DNA from: Holothuria scabra
Lineage: Eukaryota; Echinodermata; Holothuroidea; Aspidochirotida; Holothuriidae
Length of the DNA stretch: 64,000 bases
Direction: 5' to 3'
NCBI GenBank assembly: GCA_037179385.1
Contig: CM074179.1
Location: forward strand, 4,774,001-4,838,000
A program made the translations under genes and the position numbers. Positions 22,546 through 60,985 of the stretch are shown one piece after another. The first letter of the stretch is position 1; every line of letters starts with the position of its first letter. The notes under the pieces are model-generated. The model was not told the origin of the DNA and made no database searches. It saw only the letters and a program-made list of their open reading frames with translations.

Positions 22546-23895
22546 GTACTTTTTACGTACAAAAACGGCACGGGCCAATGGCCAACACGACAAACCGAAA
22601 CCGTACTGCACAAAACATAACTATGAACTATTCACATACTTCTAAAGACGTAGGAAACAAAAATTTCTGTGAGAATAAAACCAAATTAAAGTGTTCTTTC
22701 AACGTACAGAAAGGCACGGGCCAGTGGCCCACAAAACGAAACTATTTACAAACTTGTTTGTGGGCCAGAGAACAATATTTCTATGGCAATAATATACAAT
22801 CCCCCAACCCCCTAGTTACAATTGCGGACCCCACCGCCTACCGAACGTCAACCCTCAAACTAACTTCCGCCCTAACTGATGCCAGGACGACGTCCGCAGG
22901 CCTCCCTTCCCCCTAAAGACAATATTACATCGGTCTCTCCATATGGCCAACATATGGTGGGGGCGAAAGTCCATACAAAGCGTAGTCCTGGCTGATCGCC
23001 CAGATCAGTCAGGCCTTGAAACCACTCCCAGAGGACGGCTACAAAGTCACACTGCCAAAACACGTGGGACACACTCTCCCACCTTGTGCATCTATTACGG
23101 GGGCAAATGCCATCTCCAGGACGCCAACGAAAACGCCTGAGATTAGTTACAATGGCGTCGTGCGCAATTCGCCACAGCATGTCTCGACGGCGGAAGTCTA
23201 GTGACTTGCTGTGGACTACACGCCACACTTCTGACCCCAACGCATAGTTATTGGGTTGGACCTGGCCAACCATGTCATCAAAACGGCCCTGTACTGATCC
23301 CCCACACTGGACTGTGAAACATCCCCAATGGTTGACGTAACACGGAGAGTGTCCCTCATATGAAAGTATTCCTTTGTGGGCCTCAAACTGTGAGGTACAC
23401 TGTTGCTAAACAGAGAGGGGAAAAAGGAACGAAATGATAATACCCCCCAATAACGGACAAAGTAGGCAAACGGCATTTGACTACCAACAGCGCAAAAAAC
23501 ACACTTGGTCAGGAGAAAATGGAGTTTCGAGGGAAAGTGAACGAGGCCCTGCCCCCACGCCCAAGCTCCTGATAAACGACCTTTCGTCTGACCAGCTCCG
23601 TTTTTCCTGACCACAGAAACTTCAACCCTCTCCAGTCGCACCAGGACCCTTTCTGGAGCAGCCAGAACAGTGCCCGGGTACCACAAGAGAGGAAAAATAA
23701 AACAATTGATAACTGTTACCTTTCCCAACAGGGTAATATATCGGTCGCTGAAGTCCATCAACCTAGCTTCCACCAGCTCCACTTTCTCATTCCAGGTAAG
23801 TGACTCGGGCGAGCCATAACCAAACCATATGCCATACGAAGCTGCAAAAGGCAGATGTTTTGACCGCCACTTATCTAGGCGAAGTCCTTTGGCCT
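22546..23895 (-). mobile_element. Tx1-like LINE copy B, 3' portion
   Basis: This is a minus-strand copy retaining the 3' UTR and the last third of ORF2. Its 3' UTR (22546-22830) is the same type as copy H (GGCCATTGGCCCGTGCC, TTTTTGTACGTAAAAAGT). The 5' break lies near 23895, inside the RT region shortly after the LRLGKWRSK-like segment, where copy C begins. No target duplication was found. Confidence 0.8.
22870..23830 (-). pseudogene. LINE ORF2 C-terminal remnant, copy B
   Basis: Two minus-strand frames cover the region after the RT catalytic core. The first runs from ELVEARLMDFSDRYITLL through FPLLWYPGTVLAAPERVLV to YFVRYWGVLSFRSF. The second runs from WRVVHSKSLDFRRRDMLWRI to the Cys/His motif CPRNRCTRWESVSHVFWQC. 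A frameshift lies between them near 23240-23270. The G-run between YFVRYW and LSFR is only 6 bases here, probably near the ancestral state, and the insertion-free sequence GTGTGGGGGATCAG (23297-23311, minus) supplies the empty site for the large element in copy H. Confidence 0.8.
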
Positions 23896-29879: not shown

Positions 29880-32800
29880 TTACACAAAACTATGTAAAGA
29901 TAATATTACAACCCCGTCAGCCCGCACCGAAACAAGCGGACCCCACCGTCTGCTGAACGTCGACCTTGGCAAACGAACGAAGTTAGCCTCCGCCCTCACC
30001 TTAACCTCCGCTTTTACCGATGCCAGGAGGACGTCAGCAGTCCCGCCCTTTCCCCTAAATACAATATTGCACCGGTCTCTCCATATAGCAAGCTTCACGG
30101 AAGCCGAGACAAAGGTAAGTATCCCGCAAACACTCGCATTGCAAGGCGGGGGCGAAAGACCATACAGTGCATAGTCCTGACCGACCGCCCAGCTGTTGGA
30201 AAACGTGAGGCGATCGGCCAGGACTTGAAACCATTCCCACAGGAGAGCCACCAAATCACACCGCCAAAACACATGAGGCACACTCTCCCACTTAGTGCAT
30301 CCAATACGGGGGCAAATGCCATCTCCAAGACGCCACCGAAGGCGCTTGAGGTTAGTAACAATGACGTCATGTGCGAGTCGCCACAGCAAGTCTCGCCGGC
30401 GGTAATCGAGTGACTTGCTGTGGACTACACGCCACACTTTCGGTCCCGACGCATAGTTGTTGGGTCGGACCTGTCCAACCATGTCATCAAAAATGGCCTG
30501 GTACAGGTCCCCCACAGTGGACTACGAAACATCCCCCACTGTTGACATAATGCGGAGAGCGTCCCCCATGTTGCAATATGCCACAGTTGGTCTCCAGCTG
30601 TGGGGTACACTGTTACTGAAAAGGGAGGGAAAGTACCAACGAAATGATAGCCCCCCCCCCCCCCCCCCCCCAGTAAGGCACAAAGAATGTAAACGGCGAG
30701 TGGCTCTCAACGGCACTAAAAACACATCTGGTCAGGAGAAAACGGAGCTTCGAGGGAAGGTGCACCAGACCCAAACCCCCGTACCTACATTCCTGGTACA
30801 CCGTCTTTCTTTTGACCAGCTCCGTTTTCCCTGACCACAGAAACCCAAAAATGGCCCTCTCAAGTCGTATCAGGACCCTCTCTGGAGCAGCCAGAACAGT
30901 GCCCGGATACCACAAGAGAGGGTAAACAAAACGGTTGATTACTGTCACCTTTCCCATAAGAGTTAGATATCTATCGCCAAAGGATGTCAACCTAGCCTCC
31001 ACCAGGTCCGCTTTTTCATTCCAGGTAAGTAACTCTGGAGAACCATAACCAAACCATAGGCCATTAATTTTAATGGCGTCGTCAACCCACGATGCTGTGA
31101 AAGGAAGGGGCTTCCACCGCCACTTGCCCAGACGGAGTCCCTTGGTTTTAGTGGGGTTTAGTCTGGCACCTGTCGCCCTGAATGAGGGTAGGTCGGAGAC
31201 CACACAAGTGACATCATCAGCATACTGGAGGCATTTGACTTTGGCTCCACCAGGTATGTGAAAGGGTTTGAACGAAGACTCTACTTGTAAGGCTCTAGTT
31301 AGAGATTCGCTGAATAACACATAAAGTAGGGGTGACAGAGGGCACCCCTGACGTACCCCACGTCGGACCCTGAAGGGTTCCGATGGTACACCATTAACAA
31401 CAACCCGACTATATACATTACCATACAACAAGGTTACCCAATTAACAAAGGTTGGGCTTAACTTAAATTTCCTCAATACTTTAAAAAGAAACCCATGATC
31501 CACCATGTCGAAGGCTTTCTCCTGGTCAAGGGAGACAAGCGCACATGGCATATCATGGTCCTTCACATACTCAACCAGGTCCCGCACCAACCAGATGGTC
31601 TGCTGGATACTGTGTCCACGCACCGCGCATGTCTGGTAAGGCCCTACAAGATCCGGCATAACAGTGCCCAGTCTGTTACAAAGGGCTTTCGCAAGGATCT
31701 TGTAGTCCACATTCAACAGGGTGATTGGTCGCTCATTTTTTGGCTCAAGTGGATCTCCAGACTTGGGTAGCAAGGTTATTATGCCAGTGCGCTGCGAGGG
31801 GCTCAATGAGCCAGCAAAAAAGGCAGAGACGTATACATCACGAAGGTCATGTCCAACGGTACCCCAGAAGTGTTTGTAAAATTCCACTGGAATACCATCT
31901 GACCCAGGTGCCTTTCCGCCTTTCATCTTTGCTACTGCCTTCCAGAGTTCGACGACAGTCAATGGAGCGCCAAGATCATCATTCTGCTCTTTAGAGGAGA
32001 ACTTCTGCCTGAGTGTAAAGATTCTCATAGAAACTTCTAAATATGTCAACTATGTCGAGAGGGTCCTTCTGTACTGTACCATGGGCATCTCGCACCGCCT
32101 TTATGCGGCGGTCAGTGGCGTACTGCGAGGCATCCCGGTAAAACTTGATTGTAGGCTTTTCCTCCGCCTCCACGCAATGAACACGGGCACGTATGCGGGC
32201 CCCATGTAGTTTTTTATCAAGGTGTTGCTGAATTGCGTGAAGAGCGGAGGAGTCCCCATTGAGCAGAGCAAGAGGAACTCCTCCCTTCTTCAACGAGCTC
32301 TTGCTACACAGTACTCAATAGTGAACTGCTTGATGCGGGACTTTACGTCATCCCACCATTCCAAACCCGTTGGGAAGGCTGGCTTTAATGTTCGCCACCC
32401 TTCGTACCTGGCTTTTAACTGTGCAATATAATCTGTTTCTGTTAAAACATCAGTATTCATTTTCCAGAAACCCCTCCCTGTTGGCCATGACTCGGGGGGT
32501 TGAAAGGAGACTGCATCATGATCCGAAATTGGACATGGCACAACATCACAGTTGGTTGGTGACAGAGCCGGTGGAGAGTAAACTCGGTCCAGCCTTGAGG
32601 CCTCCGTGCCATCTATCTGGTCGGTGCCAAGTGAACACGGACAACCCCGGGTGTTGTGCTCTCCAAACGTCAACCATGTCATGATTCTTTGTGAACATGT
32701 CCAATTCCGAAATACCAACACCAGGGCCTGAAGAGGTACACGAGGACAATCTGTCGAGTCGTGTGTTGGGGACGCAGTTAAAGTCTCCAGCCAGGATACA

Positions 32801-35154: not shown

Positions 35155-35628
35155 TTGACTGTATGCTTCCGAGGGCCACCAAGTCTCTGTTCGTCTCTGC
35201 CTTCCTCGCTGGCTCATTGAGCCACTCGCAGCGCACAGGCATAATAACTTTGCTGCCTAAGTCAGGAGACCCCCTCGAACCGAAAAACAAACGGCCAATC
35301 ACCTTGTTACATGTAGATTACAAGATTCTGGCGAGTTATGCCAGATCTTGTAGGGTCCTTTCAGACATGTGCGGTGCGGGGACACAGTATTTAGCAGAAC
35401 CTCTGGGTGTTGCGGGACTGAGTTGAATACGTGATGGACCGTGCTCTTCCATGTGCGCTTGTCTCCCTCGACCAGGAGAAGGCCTTCGACATGGTTGATC
35501 ATGGATTCCTCTTTAAAATGTTGAAGAAGTTTTGTTTGAATCCAGTTTTGTTAAATGAACCTCCTTATTGTATGATAGTGTTAACAGTCGGGTTATCGTT
35601 TATGGCCTACCTTCAAACCCCTTCAGTG

Positions 35629-35956
35629 TCCAACGTGGCGTACGGCAGGGGTGCCCCCTATCACCATTACTATACGTATTGTTTAGAGAATCACTGGCAA
35701 GAGCCTTTCAAGTAGAGCCTTTGTTTCAACCATTTCACATTCCCGGTGGTGTTGAAGTTTAAGTGCCTTCAGTATGCTGATGACGTCACGTGTCCAACGT
35801 GGCGTACGACAGGGGTGCCCCCTATCACCATTACTTGTACGTATTGTTTAGAGAATCACTGGCAAGAGCCTTTCAAGTAGAGCCTTTGTTTCAACCATTT
35901 CACATTCCCGGTGGTGTTGAAGTTAAGTGCCTTCAGTATGCTGATGACGTCACATG
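35629..35956 (+). repeat. 164-bp tandem duplication across the RT catalytic motif
   Basis: Two copies, from TCCAACGTGGCGTACGGCAG to GATGACGTCACG, follow directly. They differ by a few substitutions and one or two indels. Each encodes GVRQGCPLSPLLYVL through QYADDVT. The duplication is recent and found only in this copy. Confidence 0.95.
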
Positions 35957-39322: not shown

Positions 39323-39711
39323 CTATCCATACAAAGCTTAAGGGCTATTACTGATAACGTTCTGTCAATAGAGCGAAGGGCAGAAACCAGTCTAGCTGGT
39401 TTATATCATATTAACATGATCGGGTATTTTTCCCTATAAAATACGACAGATACTAAACCGCCTACCCCCCCCCCCCCCCCATTTCTCAGAATTTTACTTT
39501 TACTGAGAATTCTGGGCGGAATCTCTTTCTAAACATCAAAAAGGCGTCCAAGAAAGAATGAAAACTAGCACAAATGTGTGTGGGACTTCCAGCCAATCAG
39601 CGTTGGTTATATGAGGTATTTACTTTCACGTCCAAGAAGGCACGTATAAATGAAAGCTACACGAGACCTGGCGCAGCATAGCTTTCCAATTACAGGAACC
39701 TGTTCGATTTA

Positions 39712-40025
39712 ATGGATCTAATACCGGATGTACCTGCGTCGCCGAAAGAGACCACAGACTCCAAAGAAGAAAAAATAACTTTTGGTCAAAGAACACCCCC
39801 TCCAAAATAGGACAGGATTCTTCTCAAAGAAGAAAACTACAGAAAGGTTTGCCAGCACGCCGACAGTCTCGCTTCAATCCAAGCCCCCATCATCGCCCTG
39901 ACAGAAGAAATTAAATCTCTCGACCGTCACCTAGAAAGGAGGAGAGTGCCTCAACACCTGCGGGTTCACAGAAACTCACCCAGACTTCCAAAGCCTCTGA
40001 ACTGCTCCTGGCTGGAAGTAGCTTA
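39712..40025 (+). pseudogene. Unidentified open region in unit 1, broken
   Basis: An ATG at 39712 starts MDLIPDVPASPKETTDSKEE and meets an in-frame TAG after 32 codons (CCAAAATAG), as in unit 2. Past that stop the same frame continues QHADSLASIQAPIIALTEEI and SLDRHLERRR. A 26-bp length difference from unit 2 then puts the remainder in another frame. I do not recognise the protein. Confidence 0.45.
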
Positions 40026-41739
40026 GTTTGTTAAGTTTGGCGTCCGGAATCTCGCCAGGCCAAAAGGCAGCAGCAACGTTTCCTCGAAAAGGAAAACAGG
40101 GCAAACTCAGACTTTTAGGTGCAGAGGCCAAGCAGCTGCTCAACAAACTTCTCTGCTCATCGTCTATAAAGGAGGAGGATCGACTGTGGCACCGGGGAGC
40201 CCCCAGTAAACAACCCCACCCCAAGTCAGAACTCGGAGAACTAGGAGGCTAGGCCCAGGTCAACACAAGGTATATAGGCCTAACGTTAAGCCTTCAACCC
40301 ATGCTTACTAAAGAGCGATAGAGTATTAACAGCAGTTCTAAAAAAAAAAAACTAAATTGACCAACATACCTGGACACCAAAGCAGCCTTGAAAATCTGAA
40401 ATGGTTGAAAGTTCCTATTTGGATATGTGTTAGTACCCACTGTGACAAGAACATGGTGAAAGTTTGAAAAAATACTCCAGAAATTAGAAAAGTCAGTTTC
40501 ATTTTCTGAAAACTTTTCAGTTGTCAAAATGTGTACGCACAAATTGTTCCTCTTTAACACCCTACGAATATTAGACTTAACATTTGAAATCTTTTTTTTT
40601 TTTTGTCAGCAATATCAGCAAGATAGTAAACTCCATTTTATCTGCCGCGTGTAACAGGGACACCACGATTTAGTGTCCCCATAACACACAACATTAAAAG
40701 AAGTTGAGCTGGAAACTTTCAAATACAAAAAAAAAAAAAAAAAAACACTGTTTGATACTGGAAGATAGAATGTTCATTAGGCATGAATACAAGTTTCTGA
40801 AACCATGGGATTGATTTTTCTGGTAGTATTCTGGGATCTTCTATTCATGTACCTTTGTTTATCCAAAAATTAATTAGTTTGTGCGATTGGTGAAAATCAA
40901 AGTTACTAACATAACTCACTATGGGGGACACCGAAATTTTGCCTATATTGAATTTTACCTAGAATATCTTTGGTTTTGCCTTTTATCTACAAATGAGGTA
41001 CTATCTAAAAGAGTTTGACCTATTTTTTGTTTTGTATCATGAAAACTATGGCACCTGTGAATGATAATTAAGAAACCAACATAACTAGGGGGTCACAAAA
41101 AAGTTTGTCCGCCGTATCATTTGCTCATAATTTTAGAAATATTAACTTTTGGTGATACCCTTACCATGACACATGACACACACATAAACTGTAAAACGAT
41201 GAAATATGTAATGGCATGTAAAAGAAACCATACAGCAAAGTATATGCCCAGCAAATAACAGTGGAAAACTTAAGTAACTGGGCCTAGCTAATGCAAGTCA
41301 TGGACAAAATCAAAGGACAGAGAAAGTTCACCCTGAATTTTTATTTTTCCCAAATTTTCTTTAACTCCCAGTATGATACTCTGCATACCAAAAACACAGG
41401 CTGTGGGTACATGGTCAGGTTCATGCACATACTGTACAGTGCAAGAACACTTCAATAATTATGGGACATCAGGCCCACGGTTCTCTTACATCAACCTCTG
41501 CATCTATCACTGTATGCAGCTAACATCTTGGAGATATCTACTCGGTGTGGTGCATCACAAATGCAAATCCTGCCAATTCCATCCGTTAATTCGGTCTCAT
41601 GTAAAGCAAATAGGCCTGTGATTTGGTGAGGCACCATCTCCTACAGCAGCTCGGACAAGTCCCCACGACTCTCTGGCGAAGAGCCAAGGGGCGAAAACCA
41701 AACGATTACTCCCGGAGGAGTTCTGCTCCCTTAAGGAGC

Positions 41740-42267
41740 TTAACGTCCCAAATGTACAAGTACACCCTTAGGGTAACGGTCATTTCCTGTCAAGTCTCGG
41801 GTTGCAAAATATACCACCGGTGATTTGTAACTGTCAGATATACTCATGACACACCAAAAACGTGATGCCAATGGCAGAGACTTGGCACCATCACTGTCTT
41901 TCACTCTCCGTTCAATGTCATCAAGCATATTGTTCAAAGATCCAAGATCTGTGGAGCCAACAGGTTTGTCTGATGAGCTGGAAAAAACCAAACCACTTTC
42001 TATTTTCAGTACCTAGAAGAGAAAAGAAGCCACACTGACGAAAAAGATACATGCAGCAGGCGATTTTGGTGTGGGTTGTTTTTGCATTGCCTTTTCCTTT
42101 GAAGAAAAAACTTTCTTCATGAATTCATTTCCTTCACTATCTACTGTAAATTCTTTTGCTACCTTTGCAATAGTTTAAGTATTGCCTTCTTGTCTGGACT
42201 TGAGAGGTCATTCCTTCTACGTTATTTTATTTCCACCCTTTGTTTTTGATTACGCAGCTGGCTTCAT
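41740..42267 (-). pseudogene. Unidentified minus-strand open region in unit 1
   Basis: From ATG at 42267 the minus strand reads MKPAA then a TAA where unit 2 has TCA, followed in other frames by DLSSPDKKAILKLL, KVAKEFTVDSEGNEFMKKVF and, from 41991 down, GSTDLGSLNNMLDDIERRVK and SRFWCVMSISDSYKSPVVYF. One extra A near 41993 separates the last part relative to unit 2. A TTTTTTCCAG-like acceptor precedes the last block, so splicing could join some frames. No family was recognised. Confidence 0.4.
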
Positions 42268-42925
42268 TTAGCGAACAAATCATTCCTTCGTGAACTACAC
42301 AGACTGCTGCTTATTTGAGGGTCCTTGACCACTTTTTGGCAAATCGTTTGGGGTCTTTTGGTTGGTGTAGGGTGGTAAGTTTGGCGGGTTGTTTGGGTGA
42401 CAGGGTGGGGTTCGGTGCGTTAACGTTTATGACACTTTTTCTTTCCGTGTTTCTGTGTGGAGGGTCGTGGTTTGCCTTTGTGTTATTGTCTGGCCGGTTT
42501 GGTTTGTCCTTCTGTTTCAACGTGCCTGTTTCGATGTGGGTCTAGTTGGTTTATATCATATTAACGTGATCGGGTATTTTTCCCTATAAAATACGACAGA
42601 TATCAAACCGCCTATCCCCCCCCCCCCCTTTTTTTTTTCTCTGAATTGTACTTCTCTTTTCTTCGGGAAAGTGGGACGTAGGTTACATGGGCTGAGGATT
42701 CCGGGCGGAATTTCTTTCTACATATCAGAAAGGCCTCCAAAAAATGAAAACTAGCACAAATGTGTGTGGGACTTCAAGGGTCTTATTTGGCCGTCGAATT
42801 TGCTGCAAAACTTCCAGCCAATCAGCGCTGGTTATATGGGGTATTTTCTATGGGGCGTATGAATGAAACCTACGCGGACCTGCCGCAGCATACCGCTTTC
42901 CAATTACAGGAACCTGTTGGATTAA

Positions 42926-43306
42926 ATGGATCTAATACCGGATATACCTGCGTCGCCGAAAGAGACCACAGACTCCAAAGAAGAAAAAATAACTTGTGGT
43001 CAAAGAACACCCCCTCCAAAATAGGACAGGATTCTTCTCAAAGAAGAAAACTACAGAAAGGTTCGCCAGCACGCCGAAAGCCTCGCTTCCATCCAAGCCT
43101 CCATCATCGCCCTGACAGAAGAAATTAAGGAGAGTGCCTCAACACCTGCGGGTTCACAGAAACCCACCCAGACTTCCAAAGCCTCTGAACTGCTCCTGGC
43201 TGGAAGAAGCTTAGTTTGTAAAGTTTGGCGTCCGGAATCTCGCCAGGCCAAAAGGCAGCAGCAACGTTTCCTTGAAAAGGAAAACAGGGCAAACTCAGAC
43301 TTTTAG
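42926..43306 (+). pseudogene. Unidentified 126-codon frame with one in-frame TAG
   Basis: ATG at 42926, stop TAG at 43304-43306, with one internal TAG at 43022-43024 (codon 33). The reading is MDLIPDIPASPKETTDSKEE, then after the TAG HAESLASIQASIIALTEEIK, TQTSKASELLLAGRSL and RQAKRQQQRFLEKENRANSD. It is charged, likely helical, with no signal peptide or zinc motif. The TAG is shared with unit 1, so it predates the duplication or is read through or spliced out. A TATAAA lies 340 bp upstream. Unknown function. Confidence 0.45.
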
Positions 43307-44481
43307 GTGCAGAGGCCAAGCAGCTGCTCAACAAACTTCTCCGCTCATCAGCTATAAAGGAGGAGGATCGACTGTGGCACCGGGGAGCCCCCAGTAAACA
43401 ACCCTACCCCAAGTCAGAACTCGGAGTAACTAGGAGGCTAGGCCCAGGTTAACACAAGGTCTATAGGCCTAACGTTAAGCCTTCAACCCATGCTAACTAA
43501 AAAGCGATAGAGTATTAACAGCAGTTCTAAAAAAAACTAAATTGACCAACATACCTGGACACCAAAGTAGTCTTGAAAATCGGAAATGGTTGAAAGTTCC
43601 CTTTTGGATATGTGTTAGTACCAATTGTGACAAGAACATGGTAGAAGTTTGAAAAAATACTCCAAAAATTAAAAAGGTGTTTCATTTTTCTGAAAGTTGC
43701 CAAAATGTGTACACACGTACATATTTTTTGTACAACTTTGACTGAGTTTTACCAATTAATGATGTTTAAGTATTCAAATTTTTCCTCTTTGACACCCTAA
43801 GATTGTTAGACTTAACATTTGAAATCTTTTTTCATGTCCCTTTGTGGACATACGTAATATAAGCAATATCAAAAAGATAGTAAACTCCATTTTATCTACC
43901 GCGTGTCCCCATAACACATAGCATTAAAAGAAGTTGAGCTGGAAACTTTCAAATACAAAAAACAAAACACTATTTGATACTGTAAGATAGAATGTTAAGA
44001 TCCATTTTCATCAAAAAAAAAAAAATTCAAATGTTCATTAGGCATGAATACAAGTTTCTGAAACCATGGGATTAATTTTTCTGGTACTATTCTGGGATCT
44101 TCTATTCATGTACCTTTGTTTATCCAAAGATTAATTAGTTTGTGCGATTGGTGAAAATCAAAGTTACTAACATAACTCACGATGGGGGACACCGAAATTT
44201 TGCCTATATTGAATTTTACCTAGAATATCTTTGGTTTTGTATCAAGAAAACTATGGCCCCTGTGAATGATCATTAAGAAACCAACATAACTAGGGGGTTA
44301 CCAAAAGGTTATGTCCGCAGTGTTGTTTTCAACAGTATCATTTGGAAAATTAGGTGGAGCCCTAATGCTCATATATTTAGATATATTAACTTTTAGTGAT
44401 ACCCTTACCATGACACATGACACACACATAAACTGTAAAATGATAAAATATGTAATGACATGTAAAAGAAACCATACAGCA

Positions 44482-44614
44482 AAGTATATGCATAATTTTG
44501 TGTTTGATTTAGCAGTCTGTAAATAGTTTTGCGTTTATGTTTTTGCCCGATCCGGTTTCAGTTTTTGTTTTGTATGTGCCTTTTCAATGCACTTAAAAAG
44601 CACACAGTATATGC
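44482..44614 (+). mobile_element. LINE tail insertion (~114 bp) with 9-bp target duplication
   Basis: The insert (ATAATTTTGTGTTTGATTTA through GCCCGATCCGGTTTCAG to CAATGCACTTAAAAAGCACAC) is the family 3' UTR end. It is bracketed by AGTATATGC (44482-44490 and ~44606-44614). Unit 1 shows the empty site, a single AGTATATGC followed by CCAGCAAATAACAGTGG near 41240. It is identical in type to the 3' UTR of fragment G1. Confidence 0.9.
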
Positions 44615-44858
44615 CCAGCAAATGACAGTGGAAAACTTAAGTAACTGGGCCTAGCTAATGCAAGCCATGGACAAAATCAGAATCAAAGGACAGAGAAAGT
44701 TCACCCTGAATGTTTATTTTTCCCAAATTTTCTTACTCCCAATATGATACCCTGCATACCAAAAACACAGGCTGTGGGTACATGGTCAGGTTCATGCACA
44801 TACTGTACAGTGCAAGAACACTTCAATAATTATGGGACATCAGGCCCACGGTTCTCTT

Positions 44859-48700: not shown

Positions 48701-48964
48701 GGTCTTCGTCGAGAGCGGACGTATTTTCGTTTTGCTCTCGTCGTGTTGCCGTTCTGAATTTTACTGTTGGCTACTACTATGCCTTGCTATATACTATATA
48801 CTGCTGTTGTGTGTAATTGACTTTGTATCGTGGGTGTTTCCGACCGTGCCTGGTTCTTGTGGTATCTTGTGTTGGGTTATTTTCCTTCGATTCACGGTTT
48901 ATTTTAAAAGGTACTGAGGTTTTTTTGTGTCTGGTGGCCTAGTGCCACACCCCAACTTGTTGCT

Positions 48965-50078
48965 ATGCCCGGAGGTCGGGATAGTACAACCGTTAACTTA
49001 TAGTTTAAGTTGGGGGGGGGGTGGGGGTAATGTTTCTCCTCAACAAGCGTTTTTTGTGTTGAAGAATAAGGGGGTAGAGGTGAAGGAAATTGAAATGTTA
49101 CAGGAGCTTGCAGCCCGCAACACGTTTCACCTTAAGTTTAAGTCTAATGCTGCCCGAGTTAAAGGTGTGTCTTGCTTGGAGGGGGTGGAGGGACTCACCG
49201 TCACTCCATACGATAGCTCTGTATGGGTGACGGTGTTGTACCTGCCATTTGGGGTCGACCAGCTCGCAGTTTCAAGATTTTTACATCAGTACGGAACTGT
49301 CTCTGACTCCCGATGGTGCAAATATAGTGAGGGTGAAATGAAGGGTATTTTCAATGGAAAGAGGCAGTTCCGTATGGAACTGAAGACACACATTCCATCG
49401 TTCCTGTTCATTAGGGGCTCGAAGGCGCATATCAGGTACTTCGGGCAGCCCCGCACCTGTTTTAAGTGTGGAGAGAAGGGACACGAAGCCAGGTCATGTC
49501 CCAACCGTCGTTGTGGCAGGTGCTTACAGATGGGGCATGACAAGGCAGTATGTCCCAACGAGGTGCTTTGCAATCTTTGTGGGGAGGAGGGGCATACATC
49601 TGGTGCATGCCCCACATCGTACTCCGCCCGGGCCAGTGCGGGTATGAAACAGGAACAGGATACTTCCCCGGAGGCAGGCCCAGAATACTCCAGCCAAGAA
49701 TTAGAGGAGGCAGCACTGGAGGTTGAACAGGATTTCCTGGCCTCCAAACTGTGTGAGGGGGCTGCTGAAGCTCCCATGACTGACCCCCCGACTTCCTCCC
49801 CGTCAACACCCATGGAGGCTAATGTGAGGGCGGTGGAGAAGGACCTTGAGCTGTCCTCAGACTCAGAGTCCTCCATGACAGAGGAGAATGTGCCTGCCTC
49901 AGAGCCTCCTCCAAAGGACCCTTCCGGTGAAGGCTGGTTTGATTTAGGCGGAGGGGAGGAGTCTTCCTTGAAGAGGGCGGCCTCAGGAGAGGTGTTAGTG
50001 GACCCAGGGGTCCTCGACCCTGCCGCACCTCTGCCTGGCCAACAGATTAAAAAGGCCAAGTCCCAGCTGAATACGTAG
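48965..50078 (+). pseudogene. LINE ORF1, copy H, open body with damaged start
   Basis: The expected start is ATG at 48965 (MPGGRDSTTVNL), which hits TAG after 12 codons where copy F has glutamine, followed by a G-run (49012-49027) that shifts frame. The open body from about 49030 to TAG 50076-50078 (~350 codons) has the RRM-like part (VWVTVLYLPFGVDQLAVSRF), knuckles CFKCGEKGHEARSC, CGRCLQMGHDKAVC and CNLCGEEGHTSGAC, and the SGEGWFDLGG tail. The longer frame from 48927 opens only with GTG and should not be taken as the protein. Confidence 0.85.
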
Positions 50079-50090
50079 CCTTTTTTCACC

Positions 50091-52776
50091 ATGGCTGATC
50101 CCCTGTCCCTCCTGACTCTAAACGTAAATGGCATGAGGGACAGTCGGAAGCGTTCCAGAATTTTTCAGTTTTGCAAGTTCCTTGGTGTGGGCTTTGTGTT
50201 CCTCCAGGAGACCCACATTGTGAGTGAGGAGGATGTCCACACCTGGTCCTTTGAGTGGGGTGGGGGTTTGTACGCTTCCTTTGGTTCAACAACATCTTGT
50301 GGTTCAGTTATTTTAGTTTCGCCCAGCTGGACTCCCCTGATTGGAAAAGTTGATTCGGACCATGAGGGCCGGTTGGTATGCATCACCCTTAAGCACCCTT
50401 CTGGGAACCTTTTCCTGTGCAATGTGTATGCGCCCAATCGGTCTTCAGACAGAAGGGACTTTTTCATGACCCTCCCATCCTTCGTTCCTGGCATTGCCCC
50501 ATGTATCCTGGCTGGAGGCTTTAACTGCGTCCCCGGCACACGGCTTGATCGAATGTCTTTACATGCATCTTCAGACTGTGGTGTCGGCATGGCGGAGTTG
50601 GACATGTTTGCAAAGAATCACGACATGGTTGACGTCTGGTATGTCCGCCTCAAGGTTAGACCGGGTGTACTCTCCACCCGCTTTGTCACCAAGCAAATGT
50701 GAAGTTGTGACATGTCCACTTTCGGATCATGATGCAGTTACTGTCTCCTTCCAGCCCCCACAGACATGGCCATCAGGGAGGGGATTTTGGAAAATGAACA
50801 CCCATATTCTATTGGAGGCTGACTATTGCGAACAGTTTAGAGCCTTCTCAACGAGTTCAGAGTGGTGGGATGACGTAAAGTCCCACATCAAACAGTTTAC
50901 GATTGAGTACTGTGTAGCAAGAGCTAGGCGAAGGAGAGAGGAGTTCCTCTCTCTCTGCTTAAGAGAAAAAAACGGGGACTCCTCCGCACTTCATGCAATC
51001 CAGCAGTATCTTGATGAGAAACTACACGGGGCCCGCATTTGTGCTCGTGTACATTGCGTGGAGGCGGAGGAAAAACCAACTATCAAGTTCTAACGGGATG
51101 TCTCGAAGTACGCCATCGATCGTCGCATGAAGGCGGTCCGTGACTTTCTCGGTACAGCACACAAGGACCTTCTCGACATTTTAGAAGTATTTAGAAGCTT
51201 CTATAACCAGCTTTACACCCGGGCACAGGTCGATGAGGGCCTTCAAGAGTCCCTGTTAGACAGCCTTGATAAGACCCCCACGAAAGAGCATAATGATGAA
51301 CTTGGTTCTCCCTTGACTGTCGACGAGCTCTGGAAGGCAGTGGCGAGGATGAAAGGTGGAAAGGCACCTGGGTCCGACGGTATTCCAGTGGAATTCTGTA
51401 AACGCTTCTGGGGTACCGTTGGACATGATCTCCGCGATGTATTCGTCTCTGCCTTTCTTGCTGGCTCATTGAGCCCCTCGCAGCGCACAGATGTAATAAC
51501 CCTGCTGCCCAAGTTAGGTGATCCCCTCGAACCGAAAAATAAGCGGCCAATCACCCTGTTAAACGTGGGCTATAAGATCCTGGCAAACGCCCTTTGTAAC
51601 AGACTGGGCACAGTCATGCCAGATCTTGTAGGGCCTTTCCAGACATGTGCCGTGCGGGGACACAGTATTCAGCAGAACCTCTGGTTGGTGCGGGACTTAA
51701 CTAATTACGTGATGGACCGTGATCTGCCATGTGCGCTTGTCTCCCTTGATCAGGAGAAGGCCTTCGACATGGTTGATCACGGATTCCTCTTTAAAGGTTT
51801 GAGAAAGTTCAGTTTGAACCCTATTTTTGTTAAATGGACTCACATAATGTATAATAGTGTATATAGCCGTGTTATTGTAAATGGCCTACCGTCAGACCCC
51901 TTTAGAGTCCAATGGAGGGTGCGGCAGGGATCCCTCCTGTCTCCTCTACTCTGTGTTCTTTAGCGAGTCTCTAGCAAGAGCCTTTCAAGTTGAGCCTTTG
52001 TTCCGACCATTTCATATTCCTGGTGGAGCTGAAGTCAAGTGCCTCCAGTATTCTGACGATGTCACATGTGTAGTCTCCGACCTAGCTTCCTTCAAAGCCC
52101 TTGCTGACACGTTGACTACATTTGAAAAGGCGACAGGTGCCAAAATGAACCCCAACAAGACCAAAGGACTTCGCCTAGGTAAGTGGCGGTCAAAACATCT
52201 GCCTTTTGCAGCTTCGTGGGTTGATGACGCCATAAAGATCAATGGCATATGGTTTGGTTATGGCTCACCCGAGTCACTTACCTGGAATGAGAAAGTGGAG
52301 CTGGTGGAAGCTAGGCTGATGGACTTCAGCGACCGTTATATTACCCTGTTGGGAAAGGTAACAGTTATCAATCGTTTAATTTTTCCTCTCTTGTGGTACC
52401 CGGGCACTGTTCTGGCTGCTCCAGAAAGGGTCCTGGTGCGACTGGAGAGGGCCGTTTTTAAGGAAAAACGGAGCTGGTCAGACGAAAGGTCGTTTATCAG
52501 GACCTTGGGCGTGGGGGCTGGGCCTCGTTCACTTTCCCTCGAAACTCCGTTTCTCCTGACCAAGTGTATTTTTTGCGCTGTTGGTAGTCAAATGCCGTTT
52601 GCCTACTTTGTCCTTTATTGGGGGGGGGGGGGTGTTATCATTTCGTTACTTTTTCCCCTCTCTGTTTAGTAACAGTGTACCTCACAGTTGGAGGCCCACA
52701 AAGGAATACTTTCATATGAGGGACACTCTCCGTGTTATGTCAACCATTGGGGATGTTTCACAGTCCACTGTGGGGG
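50091..52776 (+). pseudogene. LINE ORF2, first part, copy H
   Basis: A true ATG 12 nt after the ORF1 stop starts MADPLSLLTLNVNGMRD. The endonuclease shows LQETH, and AGGFNCVPGTRLDR in which the catalytic-box aspartate of GDFN is glycine. About 65 bp are deleted near 50640, then SDHDAVTVSF. A TAA at ~51091 replaces TAC. RT follows: RPITLLNVGYKILANAL, SLDQEKAFDMVDHG, a damaged VRQGSLLSPLLCVL, a frameshift near 51955, and QYSDDVTCVV (S in place of the usual A, both aspartates kept). A 13-base G-run at 52620-52632 shifts frame again. It ends at DVSQSTVG, where the nested element begins. Confidence 0.88.
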
Positions 52777-52789
52777 TTAGGTCCCTGCG

Positions 52790-53015
52790 ACAAAGTCGAC
52801 CAAAAAAAGGCACGCAGGTCGACCAAAAAGGCGACAAGGTCGACCAAAAAAGCGACAGAAGTCGACGCAAAAAGCGACAAAGTCGACCAAGCGACAAGGT
52901 CGACGCAAAAAGCGACAAGGTCGCCCGGTTTAACGACAAGGTCGACCGGTTTAATGACACCGGCGACCGGTTTAAGGACAGGGTCGACCAGTTTATGAAC
53001 ATGGTCGACCCTCAA
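52790..53015 (+). repeat. Left GTCGAC array
   Basis: Nine exact GTCGAC sites in about 225 bp, in the phrase GCGACAAGGTCGACCAAAAA with a period near 21-24 bp, begin 14 bp from the element's left end. The last part alternates with CGGTTTAA spacers. Open frames across it on both strands are translations of the repeat. Confidence 0.92.
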
Positions 53016-53129
53016 AAAAATATTCTTTTTTTTGCCTTTATTTCGGAAAACAAAAAAATTGTAAAAAATACCGTCATGCAAAGCACGTCAAATTCACAGG
53101 GCCTCTACACCAATCTGTACTTATTAACA

Positions 53130-54250
53130 TATTAGGAGCGTTAGGTTCTGGGCCCTACCCTTTACGAGAACGGGCCCATCAACAATGGGGACCCGAAAAT
53201 TGGAATTAAATTAAGTGTTACTGTAGCAGTATAGGGGGAAAACGCGTTTTCAACATTGCGCGCTTACATTTCCTAGTAAACACGGCCCACAGCCATCAAA
53301 CTCGCAGGGTCCATTGGCCCATGTGTTCGTTATAACAGGTTTATGGGTTTCTGCCCTGGGCCATATTGACCCGGAGAAATGGTCATTCTTCCGGGTGAAA
53401 TTTAAGAAAGTATGTGTGGCAAAACCCCGCTTTTTCAACTTCGCGGGCAACCATTACCTAGTGAGAACGGCCCACATACTTTAAACTCACAGTGCCTATT
53501 GGCCTATTTGTGCGCTATTACATATTGACGAGTTTTTGCCCTGGGCCCAACCGTTTAGGAGAAGTGGCCCTTTTGCAGAGGCAAGTCGAATCTGGCTGGA
53601 AAAATTAGTGTAGGCATATATGGGAAAAACGCGTTTTTTCAACTTTGCGCGCAAACATTATCTAGTGGGCAAGGCCCAAAGACTTCAAACTCACAGGGCC
53701 TATTGGCCTATGTGTGCGCTATAACATATTGACGAGTTTTTGCCCTGGGCCCAACCGTTAAGGAGGAGTGGCCCTTTTGCAGAGGCAAGTCGAATCTGGC
53801 TGGAAAAATTAGTGTAGGTATATATAGGAAAAACGCGTTTTTTCAACTTTGCGCGCAAGCATTATCTAGTGGGCAGGGCCCAAAGACTTCAAACTCTTAG
53901 GGCTTATTGGCCTATGTGTGCGCTATACCATATTGACGAGTTTTTGCCCTGGGCCCAACCGTTTAGGAGGAGTGGCCCTTTTGCAGAGGCAAGTCGAATC
54001 TGGCTGGAAAAATTAGTGTAGGCATATACGGGAAAAACGCGTTTTTTCAACTTTGCGCGCGAACATTATCTAGTGGGCAGGGCCCCCAGACTTCACACTC
54101 ACAGGGCCCATAGGCCAATGTGTGCGCTATAATATATTGACGAGTTTTTGCCCTGGGCCTAACCGTTTGGGAAAAGTGGCACTTTTGCGGATTCGATTTG
54201 AACCTGTCTGGACGAAATAAATATCATCATAAATTTCCAACCAAAAAAAA
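53130..54250 (+). repeat. 204-bp satellite, first array
   Basis: Units containing AACGCGTTTTTTCAACTTTG, GGGCCTATTGGCCTATGTGT, TTTTGCCCTGGGCCCAACCG and GCAGAGGCAAGTCGAATCTG. The AACGCG anchors at 53628, 53832 and 54036 are exactly 204 bp apart. More diverged units precede them at 53241 and ~53428. The units hold internal palindromes (ACGCGT, GCGCGC, GGGCCC). Confidence 0.93.
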
Positions 54251-55650
54251 ATTAAATAAAATATTAATCAGATAGCCAGGCAAATGAAACTTACTTAATG
54301 TCTTGGTGTACCTGTGCTACATAATATATATACGGGGTTTGGTCCTGGTCCATACCGCTTGGGAGAAATGGCACTTTTCCTAAGGCGAGTCGAATTTGTC
54401 CCACCAGATTAGTGTAGCATATTCAAAAAGATGCGTGATTTTACCCGGATTTCTGGTGAAGCAATTAAATTTTCCTGGTTAAATTTGACCAGGGAAAGGT
54501 CAAATTTTGACTATCTTTGAGTCAAATTTAACCAACATTATGTCACAACTTCAACATGAATCCATCCTTCCGTTTCCGAGAACGAGCCCATCAAAAATGG
54601 GGACTCGAAATTTGGAATTAAATTTATTTTTACTGTAGCAGTATATGGGGAAAACGAGCCTTCAACATCGCGCTTACCTTTCCTAATAAAACGGTCCACA
54701 GCCATCAAACTCACAGGGTTCATTGGCTCATGTGTTCGTTATTTTAAGTTTGCGAGTTTTTGCCCTGGGCCTTATTGACCCGGGGAAATGGTCAATCTGC
54801 CGGGTAAAATTTGATTAAGCATGTCTGGCAAAAACCCGTTTTTTTACTTTGATTCAACCCGGATTTCTGGCTAAGCAATGGTATGTTCCTGGTTAATTTT
54901 GACCAGGGAAATGTCAAGTTTTGACCAACGTTTGGTCACATTTGACCAGCAATATGTCACAGCTTAACCAGGAATCCGCCCTACCGTTTACGAGAACGGG
55001 CCCATGTCTGGCAAAAACCCGTTTTTCAACTTTGGTTCAACTCGGATTTCTGGTAAAGCAAGGACATGTTCCTGATTTAATTTGACCAGGGGAATGTCAA
55101 TTTTTTGACTAGCATTTGGTCAAATTTAACCAGGAATATGTCACAGCTTAACCATGAATCCGCCCAACCGATTGCGAGAACGGGCCCATCAAAGATGGTG
55201 ACTCGAAAATTGGAATTAAATTAAATGTTACTGTAGCAGTACACGGGGAGAACGCGTTTTCAACATTGCGCGCTTACATTTCCTAGTAGAAATGGCCCAC
55301 AGCCATCAAACTCACAGGGTCCATTGGCCCATGTGTTTTGTTATTATGTTATGTTTACGAGTTTTTACCTGGAACTTATTGACCCGGAAAAATGGTCTTT
55401 CTGCCGGGTAAAATCGGAGTAAGCATGTCTGGCAAAAGCCCGTTTTTTTTTCAACTTCGCGCTCAAACATTTTCTTATTCGACTCGCCTACGTAAAAGGG
55501 CCATTTGTCCCAAGCGGTACGGCCCAGGACCAAACCCCGTATATATATTATGAAGCGTAGATACACCTAGATATTACGTTAATTTCATGTGCCTGGCTAT
55601 CTGGTATTTTATTTAATTTTTTTGTGTGTGTTAGAAATATATAATGTAAT
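54251..55650. repeat. Higher-order spacer with inverted and direct segments
   Basis: Contains diverged 204-bp-type units, a direct-repeated TAACCAGGAATATGTCACAG motif, and a segment at 54270-54400 (TACGGGGTTTGGTCCTGG, AGATAGCCAGGCAAATGAAA) that recurs inverted at 55490-55640 and direct at 56500-56640. The region links the two 204-bp arrays and shows that the whole block was duplicated with internal inversion. Confidence 0.8.
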
Positions 55651-56500
55651 TATTTTAAAAAAATAAGTAGCGGTATATATAGGAAATACGCGTTTTTTCA
55701 ACTTTGCGCGCAAACATTATCTAGTAGGCAAGGCCCAAAGACTTCAAACTCACAGGGCCTATTGGCCTATGTGTGCGCTATAACATATTGACGAGTTTTT
55801 GCCGTGGGCCCAACCGTTAGGAGGAGTGGCGCTTTTGCAGAGGCAAGTCAAATCTGGCCGGAAAAATTAGTGTAGGCATATATGGGAAAAACGCGTTTTT
55901 TCAAATTTGCGCGCAAACATTATCTAGTGGGCAGGGCCCAAAGACTTCAAACTCACAGGGCCTATTGGCCTATTTGTGCGCTATAACATATTGACGAGTT
56001 TTTGCCCTGGGCCCAACCGTTTAGGAGAAGTGGCGCTTTTGCAGAGGCAAGTCGAATCTGGCTGGAAAAATTAGTGTAGGCATATACGGGAAAAACGCGT
56101 TTTTTCAACTTTGCGCGCAAACATTTCCTAGTGGGCAGAGCCCACAGACTTCAAATTCACAGGGCCTACTAACCTATGTGTGCGCTATAATATATTGACG
56201 AGTTTTTGCCGTGGGCCCAACCGTTTAGGAGAAGTGGCGCTTTTGCAGAGGCAAGTCGAATCTGGCTGGAAAAATTTGTGTAGGCATATATGGGAAAAAC
56301 GCGTATTTTCAACTTTGCGCGCAAACATTATCTAGTGGGCAGGGCCCACAGAATTGAAACTCACAGGGCCTATTGGCCTATGTGTGCGCCATAACATATT
56401 GACGAGTTTTTGCCCTGGGCCCAACCGTTTAGGAATAGTGGTACTTTTGCGGAGGCGAGTCGAACCTGTCTGGACGAAATAAATATCATTATAAATTTCT
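55651..56500 (+). repeat. 204-bp satellite, second array
   Basis: Anchors at 55687, 55890, 56094 and 56298 are 203-204 bp apart, with the same unit as the first array. It is followed by the same flank (AAATAAATATCAT, then TAAATAAAATA) as at 54220-54265, so the two arrays are copies of one higher-order block. Confidence 0.93.
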
Positions 56501-56984
56501 AACAAAAAAAAAATTAAATAAAATACTTACCAGAAAGCCATTCAAATGAAATTTGCGTAATGTCTAGGTGTAACTGTACTCCATACTATATATACAGGGT
56601 TTGGTCCTGAGTCATACCGCTTCGGAGAAATGGCACTTTTCCTAAGGCGAGTCGAATTTGTCCCACTAAGTAAGTGCAGCATATATGGAAAAAAAAGGCG
56701 TGATTCAACCGGATTTCTGTTGAGGCAATGACATATTCCTGGTTAAATTTGACCAGAGAAGTGTCAAATTTTGACAAACGTTTGGTCAAATTTAACCAGG
56801 AATATGTCACAGCTTAACCAGTAATCCGGGTCAGATAACCCTTGACCGCATCCTGGTCAATTTTAACCAGGGTGTCGATGATTGAAAGCACACAATGACC
56901 TATTCACACTGTCGTTTGCTTGGACGTAGCCCCCTCCTACTAGACACAGCGGCTGCACACAGTAGTTTAAGTAGACTATCTCTT

Positions 56985-57225
56985 TTAGAGTCGACCATGT
57001 CGCTTTTTCAATCCACTTTGTCGCTTTTTGAAGTCGACCATGTCGTTTTTTCAGTCGACCTTGTCCGCTTTTTGAAGTCGACCATGTCGCTTTTTTGGTC
57101 GACCTTGTCCGCTTTTGGGTCGACCATGTCGCTTTTTTAGTCGACCATGTCCTCTTTTGGGTCGACCATGTCGCTTTTTCAGTCGACCTTGTCCGCTTTT
57201 GGGTCGACCTTGTCGCTTAACTTTT
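56985..57225 (-). repeat. Central GTCGAC array, inverted
   Basis: Ten GTCGACC sites in the phrase GTCGACCATGTCGCTTTTT, the reverse complement of the left and right arrays (AAAAAGCGACATGGTCGAC). Spacing is about 19-24 bp. Confidence 0.92.
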
Positions 57226-57536
57226 AGAGCGAGTTAGAACTTATCACAGTACATCATGTCGTGACCGATGTATTGACCCAGTTTGGACTAACCCGGGTCC
57301 AAATGATATGCCAACCAAAATCTAGTGAGGTAATATCCCGTTATGATAGATTGCCACGCGGAATTTTGCCCTAACCCTAGGTCCCCCATTTTTACCCCCA
57401 GATGACCGTTGACCTGGTGGGTTAAGGTTACCCTGCAAAGTTCATGCAACGAACAACCTTTGACCAATATTTCGTTGACCCGGGGTGCGTCGTTTTTGAG
57501 ATATGAATTTTTGAAATTTCAAAATTTTAACCTCTA

Positions 57537-59215
57537 AACGCATGTAAAACCGGAACCGGAAGTGCTAAAGAACTGAACTGTGGGTATAATGAAGCCCTAG
57601 CATGGGGCTATCACCTTCTAAAATTTCGAAATGAAAGATACACCGGAAACTGTTTCGAGATTTCGACTTAACCAAAGAATGAGGTATATCAACGATCCTA
57701 CGAAGCAAGAGCGTCTTTTGCTCTTATGTCGCGGTACGAACCCCCCCCCCCCCCCCAGCGAGGGGGTGTTATAATGGTTTGGGGGTGAAATGGAGCCCAA
57801 ACGATAGTTTGGTCTTGATAACACCTCCAAACCAAATTTCGAGACCGAGAGTCACAGGAAAGTGGTAATCCGATCCATTTTACAGACGATCAGAAAGGGG
57901 GGGGGGGGGTCCAAACGCGAAATCCATGAAAAATAACACTTTTATAAATTTTTTTTTGTACTTTCCGGTCACGATATTGACACGAAATTATGATATGATT
58001 CTATCTAAATTATGGCTAATGCAATGATATTTGTTTTGTTTTGTCCCAAACCACAGGTCCCTGTTTTCCAAATGCGACTACTTAAGGGCGCTCTTCATAA
58101 AATAACTTTAAACCACTGTAAAACTGGAACCGGAAGTGGTAGAGGGGTGAGCTTTGGATATGTTACAGCCCTGGCATAGGGCTATCATGCACAAAAATTT
58201 CGGGGGGAAAGGTCCACAGGAGGCCGACTTGAAATTTTGACTTATCCCCAAAATAAGGTGCATTACGATCTAACAAAGCAGGAACGTCTTTTGCTCTATG
58301 TCGCGTTATGAACCACCGGGGTGGGGTGAACTTAGGGTATGGGGGTGAATTGGGTCCCAAACGTTAGGTTACTCTTAGTTGCATCTCCAAACCAAATTTC
58401 GAGCCCGAAATTGACTGGAAAGTGGTCATCCGATCCATTTCACATACGATCAGAAAAAAGTCGGGTCCAAAAGCGAATTTCATGAAAAATCACACTTTAA
58501 TCTTTTTTTTTTAGTACCTTTCGGGCACGATATTGACACGAAATTTTGATATAATTCTATTTAAAATATGGCTACTGCAATGGCATTTTTGAACGATTTT
58601 TTTCCAAGCCATAAGACCTTTATTTTGAAAAGCGACCGACAGAGGGCGCTCTTCATAAAATAACTTTAAACCACTGTAAAACTGGAACCGGAAGTGGTAG
58701 AGAGGTGAGCTTTGGATATGTTACAGCCCTGGCATAGGGCTATCATGCACAAAAATTTCGGGGGGGGAGGTCCACAGGAGGCCGACTCGAAATTTTGGCT
58801 TATCCCAAAAATAAGGTGCGTTAACGATCTAACAAAACAGGAACGTCTTTTGCTCTATGTCGCGTTATGAACCACCGGGGTGGGGTGAACTTAGGGTTTT
58901 GGGGTAAAATGGGTGCCAAACGTTAGGTTACTCTTAGTTGCATCTCCAAACCAAATTTCGAGCCCGAAATTGACAGGAAAGTGGTCATCCGATCCATTTC
59001 ACATACGATCAGAAGAAAAGTCGGGCCCAAAAGCGAATTTCATGAAAAATCACACTTTAATCTTTTTTTTTAGCACCTTCCGGGCACGATATTGACACAA
59101 AATTTTGATATGATTCTATTTAAATTATGGCTAATGCAATGGCATTTTTGAACGACTTTTTTCCAAGCCATAAGACCTTGATTTTGAAAAGCGACCGATA
59201 GAGGGCGTCCTAAAT
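57537..59215 (+). repeat. ~560-bp satellite, three units
   Basis: Anchors GTAAAACTGGAACCGGAAGT at ~57543 (diverged), 58117 and 58676 mark units of about 575 and 559 bp. The last two are very similar. Each contains AACGTCTTTTGCTCTATGTC, ACCGGGGTGGGGTGAACTTA and a T-run near the end followed by CACGATATTGACACGAAATT. Short frames inside are not genes. Confidence 0.9.
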
Positions 59216-60040
59216 TTCAGACAAGGTCGACCCAAAAGGGGACAAGGTCGACCAAAAAAGCGACAAGGTCGACCTAAAAAGAGACATGGTCGACCCAAAA
59301 GTCCATTAATTTTTTTTTCAAGCACTTCCGGTCAACTAATCGACACGGAATTTAGATATGTTGTTTAGAAATAAAATAGAAAGAAGTGTTATTTTCTTCG
59401 AAGTCATACGACCTTTCTACAAGAAATCCACGGAATTTAAGCGACAAGGTCGACCCAAAAGCGGACAAGGTCTACCAAAAAAGCGACATGGTCGACATTA
59501 AAAAGGCGACAAGGTCGACCTTAAAAGCGACATGGTCGACCCGAAAGTCCATTATTTTTTTTTTTTGAAGCACTTCCGGTGAACCAATCGACACGAAATT
59601 TAAATATGTTGTTTAGAAATGAAATAGAAAGGAGTGTTACTTTTTTCGAAGTCATACGACCGTCCTACAAGAAATCCACATAGAGGGCACTGAATAAAAG
59701 CGACAAGGTCGACCCAAAAGCGAACAAGGTCGACCAAAAAGGGGACAAGGTCGACCCAAAAGCGACATGGTCGACCCAAAAGTCCATTAATTTTTTTAAA
59801 GCACTTCCCGTCTACCGATCGACACAAAATTTGGGTATGATGTTTAAAAATGCGACAGAAAAGAGTGTTATTTTTTTCGAAGTCATACGACCTTCCTACA
59901 AGAAATCCATATAGAGGGCGCTGTTCCCGGTTACCGGTATTTTGCACAAATCCAGACAAGGTCGACCAACTTTAGGACGAAGTCTACCCAAAAGCTACAA
60001 AGTCGACCAAAAAAAGACACGGAGGTCGACCTCCCCTCGC
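59216..60040 (+). repeat. Right GTCGAC arrays within ~240-bp units
   Basis: Four blocks (59218-59300, 59447-59545, 59698-59785, 59955-60035) hold 15 GTCGAC sites in the left-array orientation. The blocks alternate with a repeated spacer (AAAGTCCATTA, CACTTCCGGT, AATCGACACGGAATTT, AAGTCATACGACC) of ~150 bp that resembles the end of the 560-bp unit. The last block ends 15-20 bp from the element's right terminus. Confidence 0.9.
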
Positions 60041-60054
60041 CAGGCTCCTAATTA

Positions 60055-60620
60055 GGGATCAGTACAGGGCCGTTTTTGATGACATGGTTGGCCAGGTCCA
60101 ACCCAATAACTATGCGTTGGGGTCAGAACTGTGGCGAATTGCGCACGACGCCATTGTAACTAATCTCAGGCGTTTTCGTTGGCGCCTTGGAGATGACATT
60201 TGCCCCCGTAATAGATGCACAAGGTGGGAGAGTGTGCCCCACGTGTTTTGGCAGTGTGACTTTGTAGCCGTCCTCTGGGAGTGGTTTCAAGGCCTGGCTG
60301 ATCGTCTCACGTTTTGCAACACCTGGGCCATCAGCCAGGACTACGCTTTGTATGGACTTTCGCCCCCACCATGCAGCACAAGTGTTTGCGGCATACTTAA
60401 TTTTGTGTCAGCCTCCTTGAAGTTGGCCATATGGAGAGACCGATGTAATATTGTCTTTAGGGGGGAAGGGAGGCCTGCGGACGTCGTCCTGGCATTAGTT
60501 AGGGCGGAAGTTAGTTTGAGGGTTGAGGCAGACTTTGCTCGCTTGCCAAAGTCGACGTTCGGTAGGCGGTGGGGTCCACTTGTCAAGATGCGGGCTGGCC
60601 AGCTAAAAGTTAATTTGTAA
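60055..60620 (+). pseudogene. LINE ORF2, C-terminal part resuming after the nested element, copy H
   Basis: The frame resumes with DQYRAVFDDMVGQVQPNNYA and carries CPRNRCTRWESVPHVFWQC (Cys/His motif), YALYGLSPPPCSTSVCGI and GRRWGPLVKMRAGQLKVNL, ending in TAA at 60618. About 15 residues (RVVHSKSLDYRRRDL in other copies) are deleted between LGSELW and RIAHDAI. The 3' UTR follows to 60897. Confidence 0.88.
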
Positions 60621-60897
60621 ACTGTTAACTAGGGGGTTGGGGGATTGTATGTTATTGCCATAGAAATATTGTTCTCTGGCCCACAAACAAGTTTGTATAT
60701 AGTTTCGTTTTGTTGGCCACTGGCCCGTGCCTTCCTGTACGTTGAAAGAACACTTTAATTTGGTTTTGTTCTCACAGAAATTTTTGTTTCCTACGTCTTT
60801 AGAAGTATGTAAATAGTTCATAGTTATGTTTTGTGCAGTACGGTTTCGGTTTGTTGTGTTGGCCATTGGCCCGTGCCGTTTTTTGTACGTAAAAAGT

Positions 60898-60985
60898 AGA
60901 TATTTTCTACCCAATGCCTGAAGAAAGAGTCCCCAGGTGGCGGCTCCAAAAAGCCAACTGGTCTGAATTTAGTTATCTCTACCTT
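60898..60985 (+). pseudogene. I/Nimb-type LINE remnant, continuation
   Basis: After the right copy of AGATATTTTCT the old LINE resumes in frame: YPMPEERVPRWRLQKANWSE, the conserved stretch that follows the endonuclease in I/Jockey/Nimb-type proteins. Excising 48690-60897 joins GDHYSFL to this text. Homology fades near 60985. Confidence 0.75.

Follow-up and report, generated by a model that had tools for sequence, protein, structure and literature searches.

A satellite-rich insertion of about 7.28 kb in a Holothuria scabra LINE, probably a non-autonomous DNA transposon with subterminal GTCGAC arrays

What kind of sequence is it that splits a LINE of Holothuria scabra with more than 7 kb of satellites and palindromic arrays, and by what route did it enter? 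The LINE copy concerned (copy H) lies on the plus strand of the 64-kb stretch of DNA analysed here, which we call the window. It encodes a CCHC-finger protein at 48918-50078 and a reverse transcriptase, split over two frames, at 51094-52669; it halts at 52776 and picks up again at 60055. The insert between these points (52777-60054, ~7.28 kb) has the ends TTAGGTCCCTGCGA...TCGCCAGGCTCCTAATTA and is flanked by GGG. Alignment within the window shows the empty site in all five of the other LINE copies that match both flanks; in a sixth copy only part of the left flank is matched, and it is uninformative on this point. When the insert and one GGG are taken out the two LINE halves are continuous and all five copies align through the junction, and comparison with the empty sites shows that no target bases were lost. 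There are five G residues to the left and three to the right of the insert, against five at the empty site of copy B, giving a 3-bp duplication. An earlier note on this DNA had described the duplicated GGG, the break in copy H and the empty site of copy B; all three hold, and four more empty copies are added to the one then known. Because of the five empty sites and the 3-bp duplication, the conclusion that 52777-60054 is a discrete insertion unit is supported. The insert also has a CpG observed/expected ratio of 1.0, compared with 0.57 in the adjoining LINE.

The LINE belongs to a single family present as a cluster of many broken copies in both orientations (17366-37528 and 48918-60898). A reverse transcriptase of this cluster (30613-32049, minus strand) has 2031 matches; among the best 120 of them, the closest named sequences come from Apostichopus japonicus (at most 66% identity) and Holothuria leucospilota (75% over half of the query), and the top match (81%) is an unnamed sequence. 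These relatives point to a holothurian host. Just past the insertion, copy H is without ~51 bases of copy B (60129-60136 compared with 23178-23228), apparently through an independent deletion. Elsewhere in the window, a 165-bp stretch of one LINE copy is tandemly duplicated at 35626-35953 (97%), and stretches repeated in direct order ~3.2-3.4 kb apart at 39585-44858 (90-98%) are likely to reflect tandem duplication.

The insert and its flanking duplication are made up as follows.

52777-53020, plus strand: left end, with the 9 sites of the left GTCGAC array
52787-52824, plus strand: left copy of a 38-bp end-specific direct repeat, with two sites 23 bp apart
53021-53416, plus strand: spacer with diverged sequence related to the 204-bp satellite
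53417-54188, plus strand: first array of the 204-bp satellite, 3.8 copies
54189-55674, no strand assigned: central block containing a 183-bp direct repeat and, at 54215-54395 and 55477-55655, pieces inverted to each other
55675-56474, plus strand: second array of the 204-bp satellite, 3.9 copies
56982-57218, minus strand: centre GTCGAC array, inverted, 10 sites
57528-59207, plus strand: ~560-bp satellite, ~3 copies, inferred from self-match offsets
59219-60031, plus strand: right GTCGAC arrays with 15 sites, most of which fall within the three copies of a 231-bp unit
59994-60031, plus strand: the end-specific 38-bp direct repeat at the right end, 35/38 identical to the left copy
60032-60054, minus strand: right terminal 23 bp, with a weak inverted match (TTAGGAGCCTGGCGA) and an extra TTA
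60055-60057, no strand assigned: GGG target duplication on the right; its left copy lies within the five G residues that end at 52776

GTCGAC is the dominant motif of the insert. It occurs 34 times, where ~1.3 occurrences are expected from base composition, and only eight of the 42 sites in the window fall in the other 56.7 kb. The left, centre and right arrays run direct, inverted and direct: stretches of the left array are 74-85% alike to the centre array in inverted orientation, and the centre and right arrays are likewise inverted (77-91%). The earlier note's count of about 34 sites and its array directions thus stand as given. When all 64 palindromic hexamers are compared, the densest clusters in the window are of GTCGAC (10 per 300 bp) and GGCGCC (9 per 300 bp), followed by AAATTT (7, with 98 in the window), TATATA (5) and the rest at 4 or fewer. 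Neighbouring GTCGAC pairs within the arrays (n=28) are most often 21 bp apart (16 pairs), and four pairs are at 23 bp; since two of these four are internal (57054 and 59491) and two are at the insert ends, the 23-bp spacing alone is no mark of an end. Choosing array units by their spacer alone gave 33 units, or 31 once two out-of-phase units were left out, and GTCGAC is intact in 28 of the 31, in two of them shifted by one base. Over all 33, conservation is 85-91% in the six core columns, compared with 42-70% in the next three. This pattern fits a constrained site, and could also come from rapid or recent turnover of the arrays rather than from selection. In each of the five GTCGAC arrays measured, the centres of the A-tracts keep a 21-bp phase (4-11 tracts per array; vector length 0.89-1.0); we do not take this phasing as a sign of function, as it follows from the tandem period itself.

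The ends of the insert carry two signals of unequal strength. The earlier note had called them inverted, and what stands of this is a weak match: the mirror alignment pairs TTAGGTCCCT-GCGA with TTAGGAGCCTGGCGA over 15 columns with one gap and two mismatches. As good a score is reached by 251 of 20,000 random pairs of equal length from the window (~1%), and by 597 of 50,000 in a 9-mer version of the test. With stricter scoring of 40-bp ends only GTCGACC aligns, TTAGG is not picked, and 114 of 2000 shuffles score equally high (~6%). The two sides are also offset: if GGG is counted as the duplication, the right end (...CTCCTAATTA) exceeds the mirror of the left TTAGG by three bases (TTA). Longer terminal inverted repeats were sought and rejected, the best local match between the 300-bp ends scoring 20 and shuffles reaching 25. 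The terminal inverted match is therefore suggestive rather than strong, and since chance gives its like at ~1% (~6% under the other scoring) and the right side has the TTA offset, the exact ends are uncertain.

The stronger end signal is the direct 38-bp repeat that lies just inside both ends, which the earlier note does not mention. Its copies are reciprocal best ungapped matches on both strands of the window (35/38 identities, next best scores 29 and 27), and within the window the block is confined to the two outer ends. At the left end the outer GTCGAC site starts 18 bases in from TTAGG, at the right end 21 bases in, and because GTCGAC is its own reverse complement the layout of sites is nearly equal at the two ends even though the repeats are direct. 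The geometry of the ends is thus still roughly mirror-symmetric.

The interior consists largely of tandem repeats, and both satellites of the earlier note were recovered there, the 204-bp one in two arrays and the ~560-bp one in about three copies; the ~560-bp unit exceeds the 500-bp limit of tandem-repeat finding and its copies were read from self-match offsets. A ~1.1-kb block that holds the 204-bp arrays (53428-54555) is repeated at 55691-56818 with 89% identity. The 231-bp repeat of the right arm (three copies, 59220-59923) has a spacer related to part of the 560-bp unit, with alignment scores of 68-79 against shuffle maxima of 37-43, and for this reason the right half looks to have grown by nested rounds of tandem duplication. 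At 58641 in the 560-bp unit and at 59913 in the 231-bp unit lies the sequence AGAGGGCGC, in which we see a resemblance to the core of the insulator motif of CTCF.

The insert was described in the earlier note as protein-less, and in agreement with this none of the 38 open frames of at least 60 aa that overlap it reaches the Pfam cut-off (37 frames were scanned at E up to 1 and one at E up to 0.001), the best score being 15.5 bits (E 0.01) against a cut-off of 26.4; among these frames no transposase is found. A coding role for the 204-bp satellite, whose length is a multiple of three, was considered and set aside, as a consensus has stops in all six frames. No annotated relatives came from protein searches that used the translations of an array frame and a satellite frame, one of each, and Rfam gave nothing at gathering scores in the window. 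Three patterns from the insert had no matches in viral contigs, phage records gave no match, and a pattern scan of prokaryote genome contigs gave three single matches in bacterial assemblies, which we take to be chance. A further, exploratory pattern search within the window was also negative.

Several families of mobile elements can be compared with the insert by their termini and target duplications. PIF-Harbinger elements use a TWA-type 3-bp target, whereas the target here is GGG, and LTR elements and LARDs have long direct terminal repeats of the form TG...CA, whereas the direct repeat of the insert is 38 bp long and lies inside its ends. Troyka is listed as a retroelement, not as a DNA transposon. 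En/Spm elements duplicate 2-3 bp of target, in keeping with the GGG seen here, and have termini 5'-CACTA...TAGTG-3'; the insert instead begins TTAGG... and its right terminus is TAATTAGG. The literature considered was on related families and on the repeats of lancelets, sea urchins and sea cucumbers. Soybean TgmR* is described as an En/Spm (CACTA) element with subterminal repeats (PMC4219821), and some Chenopodium CACTA elements carry a satellite array (PMC8978399). The insert resembles such elements in its 3-bp duplication and its closely spaced direct and inverted subterminal repeats (PMC4219821, PMC8978399), but it has no CACTA terminus and no transposase, and its outer arrays are direct to each other rather than mirrored. 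Because the CACTA ends are absent we do not file it as En/Spm.

Foldback-type elements offer another comparison. Tetris is a non-coding element of this type that fed a satellite and makes 8-10 bp duplications (PMC4079207), and the transposase of Galileo has a domain with multiple binding sites in tandem repeats (PMC3688188). Both are modular with tandem repeats at their ends, as the insert is, but foldback elements have long inverted repeats of tandem units, whereas here the two outer arrays share one direction, inversion being found between left and centre and between centre and right, and the duplication is 3 bp (PMC4079207, PMC3688188). The direct outer arrays and the short duplication are our reasons for not classing the insert with them. 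Rehavkus-1_TC, a 9.5-kb element with a tandem satellite in its ends, differs in its 9-bp duplication, in having the satellite in inverted termini and in its transposase gene (PMC6446971, PMC10218199). The Helentron-type HINE elements of oyster, likewise a marine invertebrate, are non-autonomous and carry satellite-like arrays; in the part of the account available they make no target duplication, have subterminal inverted repeats and a 3' palindrome and spread by rolling circle, whereas GGG is duplicated at the insert (PMC7492417). Target duplications of 3 bp in Zator and 3-4 bp in AcademX include the length seen here, but both families are defined by transposases, which the insert lacks, and the likeness is in duplication length (PMC10045372).

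Weighing these features, we think the insert is probably a non-autonomous DNA transposon of ~7.28 kb with En/Spm-like subterminal arrays of sites, which we assign to no superfamily. We rank this reading above the others. The GGG duplication, the ends and the binding-like site arrays match the general plan of En/Spm and Galileo, and a possible second element near the start of the window, described below, is a further point in its favour. Against it stand the single copy of the insert in the 64-kb window and the direct relation of the outer arrays, which is unlike typical foldback or CACTA ends. The main rival is that a satellite fragment or extrachromosomal circle was captured at a chromosome break inside the LINE, which we regard as possible but on the whole doubtful. 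A staggered break, filled in, would yield GGG, with TTA and the outer bases as filler, and widely staggered opening of a circle within an array would leave 38 bp duplicated at both ends. Capture of this kind would explain the direct end repeat, which is the stronger one, and the otherwise unexplained TTA; it also suits the weakness of the terminal inverted match, an insert made mostly of repeats and the presence of satellite-related sequence elsewhere in the window. It explains less easily an end-specific block at both ends together with a clean 3-bp duplication in which all target bases are kept, and the inverted match at the very ends, albeit weak, and the site arrays at both ends, as known transposons have, also speak against it.

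The insert might alternatively combine two related elements, adjacent or nested, the left from 52777 to ~57220 and the right, from ~57220 to 60054, having entered or been added later. The inverted relation of the centre array to both outer arrays and the different satellites of the two halves are what such a composite would give; yet inspection by eye finds no terminal motif at the centre boundary, the 38-bp block is at the two outer ends only and a single duplication encloses the whole, and we consider the composite improbable. Least probable of all is an assembly artefact in which a satellite contig was joined into the LINE through repeat confusion. Repeat-rich DNA that splits a LINE, with several further copies of that LINE close at hand, is a setting for such an error, but neither duplication of the target's own three bases nor exact continuity of the LINE is expected of a misjoin.

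If the insert is a transposon, its movement may be pictured as follows. A putative transposase or partner protein made elsewhere would bind the palindromic sites along each end, and, the site being palindromic, the direct 38-bp block would offer this protein nearly the same arrangement at each end. The assembled ends would pair and be cleaved at or near TTAGG, insertion would follow with a 3-bp stagger, and the interior would be free for tandem duplication, turning the element into a satellite carrier. The earlier note had suggested a giant non-autonomous transposon whose transposase binds GTCGACC. That the insert is a discrete unit is supported by the five empty sites and GGG; no transposase was found in the insert, the inverted ends are weak and one copy is seen, so that such a transposon is the most likely reading of the sequence but an unproven one.

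The start of the window may hold a second member of the same kind.

1-2815, no strand assigned: possible divergent relative that the start of the window truncates; its right-hand limit is placed near 2815 as a guess

A profile of the 204-bp satellite matches 82-330 of the window (E=1.4e-7), with a weaker match at 11220-11278 (E 0.039). In pairwise alignment with 53-335 there are 186 identities in 263 aligned bases (~71%) and 45 further gap positions, and the score of 104 compares with 51 for the best of 300 shuffles. For the 560-bp and 231-bp units, profiles find nothing convincing in the rest of the window (best E 0.39 and 0.099). Some 2.2 kb further downstream, at 2499-2759, the satellite relative is followed by a GGCGCC array of some ten 25-26-bp units with A-tracts, and this array is followed at 2761-2815 by three 16-bp units of the type CGGTCTCGCGGGCCTG; the A-tract vector length in this array is 0.30 at 10.5 bp and 0.24 at 21 bp, the sole periods tried. 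What speaks for a second element is a 71% match and, some distance off, an array of a different hexamer; 1-2815 may be a divergent member cut by the window edge, or a coincidence; 2499-2815 is possibly the right part of another element that starts before the window. We would raise, as an unlikely extension, a lineage of satellite carriers that lack genes and have their ends set by arrays of a palindromic hexamer and not by an inverted terminal repeat. In this lineage direct ends would act as mirrored ones and the hexamer would vary from member to member (GTCGAC in the insert, GGCGCC in its possible relative). Such variation is expected if array and transposase change together.

A satellite assembly that moves as one unit was thought unusual in the earlier note. 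This is overstated, as satellite-carrying CACTA, foldback, Rehavkus and Helentron elements have been published, and the available parts of these reports show that satellite-carrying transposons (Tetris, Rehavkus, oyster HINE, Chenopodium CACTA) are already known. What is unusual in the insert is that it is mostly repeats, that its three palindromic arrays alternate in direction, and that its strongest end signal is direct. The palindromic end arrays give a testable prediction on how direct ends may substitute for inverted ones. The insert bears on the scattering of short satellite arrays through genomes: it is probably a way for satellite DNA to spread, and a largely satellite element with sharp ends, lying in an older LINE beside five empty sites, would directly exemplify the seeding of satellites by transposition.
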